NCBI GenBank assembly: GCA_937958265.1
Contig: CALGNX010000009.1
Span: 1-64,000 of the forward strand
Direction: 5' to 3'
Length of the DNA stretch: 64,000 nucleotides
DNA from: an uncultured Algibacter sp.
GTDB taxonomy: Bacteria; Bacteroidota; Bacteroidia; Flavobacteriales; Flavobacteriaceae
In this document: positions 2,368 to 6,276 of the stretch, piece by piece
How positions within the stretch are numbered: the first letter of the stretch is position 1
How the letters are laid out: the number at the start of each line of letters is the position of its first letter
The notes under the pieces: model-generated
The model's input: only the letters and a program-made list of their open reading frames with translations
Databases searched by the model: none
Told to the model about the DNA's origin: nothing
Made by a program: the position numbers and the translations under genes

Positions 2368-2499
2368 TGATTTTTCAATTCGCTTAATAGCAAATGTAAT
2401 TCTTTTTTGCGAAATAGATGAGTTTTTAATTTAACGAGGTGTTAAATAATTAAATCAAAGACCACTAAAAGAATTGTTGATAAAACGTTATTTATTAAC

Positions 2500-2526
2500 A
2501 AAGTGGTAAAAAGTGGTAAAAAGTGG
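2500..2526 (+). promoter_or_regulatory. Putative MraZ box: three tandem AAAGTGG repeats at 10-bp period
   Basis: AAAGTGGTAA AAAGTGGTAA AAAGTGG at 2500, 2510 and 2520, immediately upstream of mraZ. Confidence 0.85.
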
Positions 2527-2537
2527 TATAATTTGTA

Positions 2538-2545
2538 TATTTTTG
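2538..2545 (+). promoter_or_regulatory. Candidate Bacteroidota -7 element for the dcw operon
   Basis: TATTTTTG matches TAnnTTTG, between the AAAGTGG repeats and the likely mraZ start. Confidence 0.45.
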
Positions 2546-2568: not shown

Positions 2569-3036
2569 TTGATAAACTTAATTGGAACATACGAGTGTAA
2601 AGCAGATGCTAAAGGAAGGATGATGATGCCATCTGCCTTTAAGAAGCAGCTTGCACCTGTGTTACAAGAAGGTTTTGTAATTAAGAGAGCTGTTTTTCAA
2701 TCTTGTTTAGAGTTGTATCCAATGGAGGAATGGAATCTTATGATGCAGAAAATTAATAAGTTAAATAGGTTTAAGAAAAAGAATAACGATTTTATTAGAA
2801 GATTTACTGCAGGGGTAAAAGTTGTTGAGTTAGATGCTTCTGGTAGAATTTTAATACCAAAAGATTTGTTTGAGTTTGCGGGTATTAAAAAACAGCTTGT
2901 AATGTCTTCATCTGTAAATATTATTGAGATTTGGGATAAAGATAAGTACGAGAAAGAGATAAACGAGGCTGCAGAAGATTTTGGAGATTTGGCAGAAGAA
3001 GTAATGGGAAATATAGAGTTTGATGAATTATCATAA
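2569..3036 (+). CDS. mraZ: Transcriptional regulator MraZ (likely TTG start at 2569; ORF track extends it to 2503)
   Basis: LINLIGTYECKADAKGRMMMPSAFKKQL is the usual MraZ N-terminus. Upstream codons fall in the promoter/MraZ-box region. Confidence 0.92.
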   Translation: MINLIGTYECKADAKGRMMMPSAFKKQLAPVLQEGFVIKRAVFQSCLELYPMEEWNLMMQKINKLNRFKKKNNDFIRRFTAGVKVVELDASGRILIPKDLFEFAGIKKQLVMSSSVNIIEIWDKDKYEKEINEAAEDFGDLAEEVMGNIEFDELS

Positions 3037-3922
3037 TCCAGTTTTATTAAAGGAAAGTGTAGACGCTCTTGCTATTAAGCAAGACGGTGTGTATGTAGAT
3101 GTAACTTTTGGTGGAGGTGGGCATTCTAGAGAAATCTTAAGTAGATTAGGTGATAAAGGGAGGTTGTTTGGTTTTGATCAGGATCCTGATGCGCAAGAAA
3201 ATGTAATAGATGACTCGCGTTTTGTTTTAATACCTGAAAATTTTAGATATATAAGTAGGTTTTTAAGATTTCATGGGGTAAGAAAAGTAGATGGAGTTTT
3301 AGCAGATTTAGGAGTTTCTTCTCATCAATTTGATGAGGCGGATAGAGGGTTTTCTACTCGTTTTGATGGTGAGTTGGATATGCGAATGAATCAGAAATCT
3401 AAAATATCAGCAAAAGAAATTATTGCAAACTATTCTGAAGAGAAATTGGCTGAAATATTGTTTTTGTATGGGGAGTTGAGGAATTCTAGGAATATAGCAA
3501 AAACGATAGTAGAGAAAAGGCAAATAGAAAGAATTGATACGAGTTATCAGTTGCGAAAAGCTTTGCAGCGTTATTTGCCAAAAGCAAAAGAGCATAAAAT
3601 TATCGCACAAATATTTCAAGCGATTCGTATTGAAGTAAATGAAGAGTTAGATGTTTTAAAAGAATTTTTGCAGCAAATGCCTGGGTTGTTAAAAGAAGAA
3701 GGGAGATTGAGTGTTATTTCTTATCATTCTTTAGAAGATAGGTTGGTAAAGAGGTTTGTAAGAACAGGTTTGTTTCAGGGAGAACCAGAAAAAGATGTTT
3801 TTGGTAATAGTAATGAGCCGTTGCAAAAAGTAGGGAAATTGATAGTGCCAGATGCTAAAGAGATAAAACTTAATAATAGGGCAAGAAGCGCTAAGTTAAG
3901 AATAGCTACTTTAAAAAAGTAA
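3023..3922 (+). CDS. rsmH: 16S rRNA (cytosine1402-N4)-methyltransferase RsmH/MraW
   Basis: MNYHNPVLLKESVDAL, DVTFGGGGHSREIL, SYHSLEDRLVKRF. Overlaps the mraZ 3' end. Confidence 0.96.
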   Translation: MNYHNPVLLKESVDALAIKQDGVYVDVTFGGGGHSREILSRLGDKGRLFGFDQDPDAQENVIDDSRFVLIPENFRYISRFLRFHGVRKVDGVLADLGVSSHQFDEADRGFSTRFDGELDMRMNQKSKISAKEIIANYSEEKLAEILFLYGELRNSRNIAKTIVEKRQIERIDTSYQLRKALQRYLPKAKEHKIIAQIFQAIRIEVNEELDVLKEFLQQMPGLLKEEGRLSVISYHSLEDRLVKRFVRTGLFQGEPEKDVFGNSNEPLQKVGKLIVPDAKEIKLNNRARSAKLRIATLKK

Positions 3923-3923
3923 G

Positions 3924-4250
3924 ATGGCTGAGGTTAAAAAAGGGTTGTATGATTTTTTAAGGGGGAGTTTTCTTATAGATGGTTCTGCTTTAAAAAATTG
4001 GAAGATAATTTTATTTGTAGTTCTGTTGTTGTTAACCATGATTGCTAGTGGGCATAGAGCAGATAAAAAAGTAATTCAGATATCTGAATTAAATAAAAGG
4101 AAAAGGGAGTTAAGGGCAGAGTATGTAGATACAGGTACTATTTTAATGAGAATGAAAATGGAGTCTAGTATACGGAAGAAAGCAAAAGAAAGAGGTTTAG
4201 AGCCGTTAAAGGCACCTCCAAAAAAAATAAAAGTAATAATTAAAGAATAA
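3924..4250 (+). CDS. ftsL: FtsL-like cell division protein
   Basis: Small single-TM protein between rsmH and ftsI; operon position. Confidence 0.8.
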   Translation: MAEVKKGLYDFLRGSFLIDGSALKNWKIILFVVLLLLTMIASGHRADKKVIQISELNKRKRELRAEYVDTGTILMRMKMESSIRKKAKERGLEPLKAPPKKIKVIIKE

Positions 4251-4257
4251 TAACAAA

Positions 4258-6276
4258 TTGGCAACTCATAAAAAAAGCATATTAACAAGGTTCTATATAG
4301 TAGGGGCTTTTCTTGCGTTTTTTTTAATGGCAATTGTGTTTAGGGTGCTTACAATTCAGTATTCAGAAGGAGATAAGTATCGAAAACTAGCTACAGAGTT
4401 AACAATTAAACAAGATACTATTTACGCAAATAAAGGTAATGTGTATGCTTCAGATGGAAATTTGTTGGCTACTTCTATGTCTAAGTTTACAATTAGAATG
4501 GATCTTGTAACTGTAGATAGCGAAGTGTTTGAAAAAAACATTTCTGAATTATCTGAAAAGCTTTCTGATATGTTGGGTGAAACACCAGAATATTATCAGC
4601 ATAAATTAAGAAATGCTAAGAAAAAGAAAAATAGGTATTTGTTAATAGCTAGAAATATAGGGTATACTGATTATTTAAAAATGAAACAGTTTCCTATTTT
4701 TAATAAAGGTGTGTATAAAGGAGGTTTTATTGCGGAGCATAAAACGGTTAGGGCGCATCCAATAGGTAAAATAGCAGAAAGAACAATTGGGTACGATGAT
4801 AAAAGAGGTGGTGCCGGTATAGAGGGAGCTTTTTCTGATTTTATGCAAGGTGAAAATGGTTTGAGATGGAAGCAAAAGATAGCTAAAAATCAATGGAAAC
4901 CTATAAATGATGTAAATGAAAAAGAGCCAATTGATGGGCATGATATTATTACAACAATAGATGTTAATATACAAGATATTACGCATCATGCATTGTTAAG
5001 AAAGTTAGAGTATTTTGAAGCAGATCATGGTTGTGCGGTAGTTATGGAAACTGCAACGGGTGAAATTAAAGCAATTTCTAATTTAGGGCGTACTTCTAAA
5101 GGGTTGTATTATGAAAAAAGAAACTATGCTGTTTGGGAGAGTCACGAGCCTGGGTCTACTTTTAAACTAGCTAGTTTAATGGCTGCTTTAGACGATAAAG
5201 TAATAGATACATCAACGGTTGTAGATACTGGTAAAGGTAGGTTTTATGTAAATGATAGAAAGGTAGAAGATTCTCATAGAGGTGGTTATGGTAAAATTTC
5301 TGCAGCAAGAGTTTTTGAGGTGTCTTCTAATGTAGGTATTGTTAAAATGATTAGGAAGCATTATGATAAAAATCCACAGAAGTTTTATGATAAAATTGAA
5401 GAATATGGATTTACAAAACCTATTGGTTTTAAGATAAAAGGAGAGGGTATTCCGTACGTGCCAAATCCTAAAGATAAAAAAAGATGGAATGGTATTTCTT
5501 TAGAATGGATGTCTTGGGGGTATGGTATTTCTGTAACGCCAATGCAAACATTAATGTTTTATAATGCTGTAGCTAATAAAGGAGTTATGGTAAAACCAAG
5601 GTTTATTAAGGAGTTAAGACGAAATGAAAAAATAGAAAAAGTTTTTGATACCGAAGTGTTGAATTATCAAATTGCTTCTGAAGAAACGCTTAATAAAATA
5701 ACAAAAGTAATGGAGAATGTTGTAGTTAAAGGAACTGCAAAAAATATTTACTCTCGTAATTTTTCTATGGCAGGTAAAACGGGTACCGCTAAAAAATATA
5801 TCCCAAGAAGAAAAAATGTAGAAGGAAAATATGAGGGAGGGTTTTATTCATCAGATCATTATGTGGCTTCTTTTGCAGGTTTTTTTCCCGCAGAAAATCC
5901 TAAATATTCTTGTATCGTAGTAGTACATGATCCTAAAAAAGAAAAAGGGTACTACGGAGCAATAGTTGCAGCGCCAGTATTTAAAGAAATAGCTCAGAAA
6001 ATATATACAACTACACCTATTGATAAGCAATCGGTAAAAGATGAGGTAACTTTTGATGCTATCGAGAAAGAGTATCAAAATTTTGATAAAAAAATAAATA
6101 AAGAATACCGAACTGTGCCAAGTGTTAAAGGTATGTCTGGAATGGATGCAATTGCATTGCTAGAAAATATAGGGTTAAAAGTAAAACTTACAGGGGTAGG
6201 TACAGTGAGATCTCAATCACTTAAAAGAGGAGAGAAATTAGTAAAAGGTAGAACCATAATTTTAAAACTTTCTTAG
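4258..6276 (+). CDS. ftsI: Penicillin-binding protein 3 / FtsI-like transpeptidase with C-terminal PASTA domain (TTG start)
   Basis: EPGSTFKLAS (SxxK), SSNVG (SxN), AGKTGTAKKY (KTG). PASTA: VPSVKGMSGMDAIALLENIGLKV. Confidence 0.94.
   Translation: MATHKKSILTRFYIVGAFLAFFLMAIVFRVLTIQYSEGDKYRKLATELTIKQDTIYANKGNVYASDGNLLATSMSKFTIRMDLVTVDSEVFEKNISELSEKLSDMLGETPEYYQHKLRNAKKKKNRYLLIARNIGYTDYLKMKQFPIFNKGVYKGGFIAEHKTVRAHPIGKIAERTIGYDDKRGGAGIEGAFSDFMQGENGLRWKQKIAKNQWKPINDVNEKEPIDGHDIITTIDVNIQDITHHALLRKLEYFEADHGCAVVMETATGEIKAISNLGRTSKGLYYEKRNYAVWESHEPGSTFKLASLMAALDDKVIDTSTVVDTGKGRFYVNDRKVEDSHRGGYGKISAARVFEVSSNVGIVKMIRKHYDKNPQKFYDKIEEYGFTKPIGFKIKGEGIPYVPNPKDKKRWNGISLEWMSWGYGISVTPMQTLMFYNAVANKGVMVKPRFIKELRRNEKIEKVFDTEVLNYQIASEETLNKITKVMENVVVKGTAKNIYSRNFSMAGKTGTAKKYIPRRKNVEGKYEGGFYSSDHYVASFAGFFPAENPKYSCIVVVHDPKKEKGYYGAIVAAPVFKEIAQKIYTTTPIDKQSVKDEVTFDAIEKEYQNFDKKINKEYRTVPSVKGMSGMDAIALLENIGLKVKLTGVGTVRSQSLKRGEKLVKGRTIILKLS

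Follow-up and report, generated by a model that had tools for sequence, protein, structure and literature searches.

Organization of the mraZ locus

The window, by which we mean the whole stretch of 64,000 nucleotides analyzed, contains an array of short repeats followed by division genes in the order mraZ, rsmH, an ftsL-like gene and a penicillin-binding protein gene (Table 1). The start of mraZ is most likely the TTG codon at 2569, because the conserved N-terminus LINLIGTYECK begins there in the translation, whereas the GTG start at 2503 proposed by the ORF tool lies within the array and is not credible. Solved structures of homologues of the mraZ product are available (1n0e, 9qlg, 9qlr). 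Judged by the identity of RsmH and MraZ, the nearest named relatives among the matches listed belong to Polaribacter, which suggests that the window comes from a member of the Flavobacteriaceae.

The initial annotation had described three AAAGTGG units with an exact 10-bp period and TATTTTTG at 2538, and had placed the repeats where the -33 region would be relative to the latter. These descriptions agreed with our data: AAAGTGGTAAAAAGTGGTAAAAAGTGG was found exactly at 2500-2526, TATTTTTG begins at the position given, and the array overlaps the position expected for the -33 element.

Table 1. Features identified at the mraZ locus (positions refer to the window)
Feature	Position	Strand	Remarks
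TTATCAACA, inverted partner of 2492-2500	2475-2483	-	Not conserved
TTATTAACA, conserved element TTATNMACA, interpreted as a DnaA box in the local dialect	2492-2500	+	Shares one base with box 1
MraZ box 1	2500-2506	+	AAAGTGG; pattern scan and alignment of 56 relatives
MraZ box 2	2510-2516	+	AAAGTGG; little or no variation of GTGG in 56 genomes
MraZ box 3	2520-2526	+	AAAGTGG; alignment of 56 genomes
TATTTTTG, Bacteroidota-type -7 promoter element (TAnnTTTG)	2538-2545	+	Spacing conserved in relatives
mraZ	2569-3036	+	Probable TTG start; PF02381, two stretches, E = 8.6e-27
rsmH (mraW), second dcw operon gene	3023-3922	+	PF01795, E = 1.3e-91
ftsL-like gene	3924-4250	+	PF19579, E = 7.6e-38
Division penicillin-binding protein gene, with PASTA domain	4258-6276	+	PF00905, PF03793

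The repeat array is retained together with mraZ

The single AAAGTGG unit was not enriched in the window (15 observed, 11.6 expected), and it is thus the periodic array that matters. The three-unit pattern, with up to 3 mismatches allowed, gave 2 overlapping matches in the window, both at the array, compared with 0.02 expected from dinucleotide shuffling. In the whole 2.89-Mb genome, the two-unit pattern with at most one mismatch had one further, imperfect match on contig C3, and the only clean array is the one ahead of mraZ.

To assess conservation we compared 60 relatives from many families of the Flavobacteriales, 56 of which carry mraZ. GTGG units with a 10-bp period were present upstream of mraZ in all 56, some units being degenerate in a few genomes, and the GTGG of the middle unit was nearly invariant. 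A TAnnTTT[G/A] element begins 10 to 12 nt past box 3 in 51 of them. The remaining four relatives (G032, G047, G048, and G051; loci L061-L064) lack mraZ and have kept rsmH, and neither the array nor the TTATYAACA element described below was found upstream of rsmH in any of these. The initial annotation had named lack of conservation upstream of mraZ in related genomes as an argument against its MraZ-box interpretation. The retention of the array with mraZ and its loss without it instead support that interpretation at the level of sequence comparison. The locus thus shows what is expected of an MraZ operator, namely, tandem GTG-containing units with a period of about 10 bp upstream of mraZ, an adjacent gene encoding two SpoVT/AbrB-like halves (PF02381 matches both), and retention in relatives along with absence where mraZ is missing. 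These data support the prediction that 2500-2526 is an array of MraZ boxes, a candidate MraZ binding site.

The accounts of Fisunov et al. (2016) given in PMC8475190 and PMC5138195 describe the MraZ boxes of Mollicutes as AAAGTG[T/G] direct repeats upstream of mraZ that form a single genomic site. Their unit and 3-nt spacer are the same as in the array described here (PMC8475190), but in the present locus the three boxes lie upstream of and over the -33 region of a Bacteroidota-type promoter, and a DnaA-type box adjoins them. MraZ is reported to act as a repressor in Escherichia coli, and its loss raises dcw transcripts in Mycoplasma genitalium (PMC8475190). In Burkholderia cenocepacia, 7-nt repeats with 3-nt spacers are found in the MraZ-bound fragment (PMC7761207). 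The operators of E. coli and B. cenocepacia share the GTG-containing repeats with ours (Eraso et al., 2014; PMC7761207), but their boxes lie downstream of -10, in B. cenocepacia over the transcription start, whereas those studied here are upstream of -7 (PMC7761207). GTGG arrays are found ahead of mraZ in other orders of the phylum as well; on visual inspection, however, these are located at or after -7, over the start region, which resembles the placement in E. coli and Burkholderia (PMC7761207).

A conserved element adjoins the array

The alignment of the relatives revealed a further element, TTAT[CT]AACAA, directly 5' of box 1, which the initial annotation had overlooked. Its base conservation amounts to 1.1 to 1.7 bits at most positions. 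Strict TTATNMACA adjoined the array in 48 of the 56 mraZ upstream regions, which had not been selected for the element; on the plus strand its offset was -8 in 42 and -9 in 4 regions, and the 9-mer was rare elsewhere within the same regions. A minus-strand match at the offset of the inverted partner occurred once in the 56 genomes, in the own genome only.

An order-wide scan that selected only for three GTGG units showed that most arrays have the element, with C, T, A or G at position 5 and A or C at position 6. Scanning one genome per GTDB species with the composite pattern returned at least 118 stretches; the titles among the matches listed are from Bacteroidota, mostly Flavobacteriaceae, and include Pontibacter, a Chitinophaga metagenome-assembled genome (MAG) and Bacteroidales MAGs. 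Among these listed matches, an MraZ start followed downstream in 112 of 118 loci, TAnnTTT[G/A] was located 10 to 12 nt past the third unit in 108 of 118 named loci, and 113 had A and 5 had C at position 6 of the element.

Since the element occupies the slot just before box 1 and was lost along with mraZ in four of four genomes, TTATYAACA may be a variant fourth MraZ half-site in the next 10-bp slot of a plain autoregulatory MraZ operator. Furthermore, an extra GTGG is often present beyond the element, 21 nt before the GTGG of box 1 (8 of the 56 relatives; 36 of 118 loci among the matches listed), so that in those loci the element is flanked by MraZ units. However, TTATYAACA contains no GTG, its variants resemble TTATNCACA and not AAAGTGG, and it keeps its strict sequence even where slot 1 of the array is degenerate (G040 and G053). 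In addition, it follows the DnaA-box dialect in Psychroflexus, as detailed below. We therefore consider a fourth half-site unlikely.

Occurrence of the element at the presumptive replication origin

In two complete genomes, the sampled GC skew changes sign at about 0.89 Mb (G023) and about 1.2 Mb (G030), close to the rnr-rpiB intergenic region, as rpiB is located at 0.911 Mb and 1.187 Mb, respectively. On the basis of the skew in these two genomes and of box content, this AT-rich region is likely the chromosome origin in the family. Examples are L263 (G000:C5, upstream of rpiB at 144838), L240, and L259. In 14 genomes with the DnaA helix DHATV, the region contained 38 TTATNAACA and 6 TTATNCACA, for which shuffled sequences predict about 3 and about 0.7, respectively. 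In the two Psychroflexus genomes, which have DHSTV, 0 TTATNAACA and 11 TTATNCACA were found. The own genome had 4 TTATNAACA in this region (0.22 expected), whereas the 9-mer was absent from that of two Ala-type genomes, G001 and G018. As would be expected of a DnaA box, the 9-mer is thus enriched at the presumptive origin of the clade.

No box clusters were found in the dnaA flanks, and the origin therefore does not appear to lie beside dnaA. A search of the family f5 genome G053 by skew and box clusters gave no clear cluster near the skew minimum. Inverted TTATNCACA pairs were almost absent from 50 genomes, and double boxes 2 to 4 bp apart (G000 C18, G023, and G025) had no neighboring genes in common. 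Some 80 to 90 bp before the dnaA start there is a DnaA-box-like site, TT[AG]T[TC]CACA, which overlaps the dnaA promoter element TATTTG in most relatives (in the own genome, L131); its sequence and position suggest dnaA autoregulation.

Nearly all relatives searched also retain two TTATYAACA, exactly 20 bp apart, in the stretch separating fmt from the HU gene. The pair has the sequence TTATTAACA-N11-TTATCAACA (L150 1501-1529, which is G000:C1:365452-365480; also L149, L159, and L170) and is probably an HU regulatory site. This locus was ruled out as the origin, since the sampled GC-skew switch lies elsewhere in G023 and G030.

Resemblance of the element to DnaA boxes

TTATTAACA agrees with the E. 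coli consensus TTWTNCACA at 8 of 9 positions; the exception is A at position 6, and we therefore refer to it as a DnaA-type or DnaA-like box and not as a canonical one. At position 5, where the consensus is degenerate, the element can likewise have any base (C, T, G or A). Psychroflexus, Pontibacter (with TTATCCACA), and genus g144 have perfect matches at this location. TTATCCACA, TTATTCACA, and TTATGCACA are perfect DnaA boxes beside the mraZ array in separate genera. The element thus shares with the E. coli box the 9-mer pattern, the degenerate position 5 and the enrichment at the presumptive origin, but position 6 is usually A and it lies beside MraZ boxes. It is also a single box, whereas E. 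coli DnaA prefers pairs 2 to 3 bp apart (PMC11317965). The text of that E. coli DnaA chromatin immunoprecipitation study does not mention mraZ.

DnaA residues 399, 423, 432 to 435 and 438 to 439 contact bases, and residue 435 varies between groups (PMC5043019). Inspection of the DnaA loci (L112-L141) showed that the recognition helix reads DHATV in most of the order, with Ala435 where E. coli has Thr. The exceptions with DHSTV (Ser435) among the listed genomes of the same family are G111 and G353. The MraZ and RsmH proteins of G111 are 91 to 92% identical to those of Psychroflexus sediminis, which identifies it as Psychroflexus. The site adjacent to mraZ is TTATYAACA in the 34 Ala-type genomes of the family that could be paired with DnaA data. 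In the family outside Psychroflexus it is mostly TTATNAACA, as are the origin boxes. In Psychroflexus, TTATNCACA makes up the origin boxes as well as the site beside mraZ, the latter being TTATCCACA in G111, G353, and P. sediminis. DnaA residue 435, the origin boxes and the mraZ-adjacent site thus differ together from the rest of family f1, although this covariation concerns one genus and is in effect one evolutionary switch. A MAG titled Psychroflexus (L325) has TTATCAACA; with the RsmH of G111, its own shares only 65% identity (P. sediminis, 91%), and it was therefore not counted as Psychroflexus and is probably mislabelled.

Family f5 has Ser435 and Tyr439, yet TTATCAACA or TTATAAACA near mraZ, and does not fit a rule based on residue 435. 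Genus g144 of family f7 has an Ala-type DnaA, yet TTATNCACA or TTATCAACT near mraZ, and agrees with such a rule only on the condition that Ala accepts both bases at position 6. Since the A:C ratio of 38:6 at Ala-type origins does not differ greatly from the roughly 3:1 of the genome background, Ala may merely relax this position. The safer reading of these sequences is that Ala435 relaxes position 6 and that Ser435, in Psychroflexus, accompanies C. There is a parallel in the Epsilonproteobacteria, for which variation at DnaA residue 435 was proposed to alter box recognition (PMC5043019); in that dialect, however, position 5 is fixed as T, whereas here position 6 shifts from C to A.

These data also bear on the idea that a different transcription factor works together with MraZ through TTATYAACA and might, for instance, regulate the HU gene as well. 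The pair between fmt and the HU gene, present in nearly all relatives and away from the skew switches of G023 and G030, is consistent with such a factor, but the origin enrichment and the switch in Psychroflexus agree with DnaA, and HU itself is a plausible DnaA target, so that we regard this explanation as distinctly unlikely. It is very improbable that TTATYAACAA is an A/T-rich UP-like promoter extension with no dedicated regulator: its distance of about 52 to 60 bp from the predicted start of transcription, on the upstream side, and the A run in front of it would fit such an extension, but the conserved C and the tight per-base conservation are atypical of UP elements, and the element is absent where mraZ is absent.

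A putative composite operator

The origin enrichment and the Psychroflexus switch favor, as far as sequence comparison can tell, a DnaA box in fixed phase with the MraZ operator. We propose, with a probability of about 0.6, that 2492-2526 is a composite dcw operator that combines an MraZ array with a DnaA box and through which MraZ autorepression would be tied to replication by DnaA. The binding of both proteins, the repression by MraZ and the direction in which DnaA acts are all inferred. The three boxes, on one helix face, would cover approximately -52 to -26 of the TATTTTTG promoter. MraZ, the first product of the operon, would bind the array as a multimer and block RNA polymerase at -33, resulting in negative feedback on mraZ-rsmH-ftsL-pbp. 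If TTATTAACA represents the clade's own version of a DnaA box, DnaA bound there would overlap box 1 and might help or hinder MraZ loading, by cooperation or competition, which would couple the transcription of division genes to the replication-initiation cycle.

The wider claim, which we hold to be slightly better than an even bet, is that the Flavobacteriales as a whole have a DnaA box joined to the MraZ array at a constant helical phase, the two proteins thereby jointly setting division-gene transcription. It further holds that the DnaA-box dialect of the clade, with A allowed at position 6, is linked to Ala435, and that Psychroflexus departs from the others in all three respects, namely, its origin boxes, the box beside mraZ and its DnaA.

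A search of the literature, largely confined to papers available without subscription, retrieved no description of a DnaA box at mraZ or of MraZ boxes in Bacteroidota. As a type of element, MraZ boxes are known, and the composite operator appears to be undescribed in the searchable literature. The altered DnaA-box dialect, if true, would matter when the usual consensus, TTATCCACA, is used to locate origins in genomes of this group. The link between division-operon expression and replication is poorly understood beyond a few model bacteria. The element beside the array raises the possibility that the Flavobacteriales couple the expression of division genes to replication, and an order-wide DnaA-type box locked to the MraZ array makes this link testable, for example in Flavobacterium johnsoniae.
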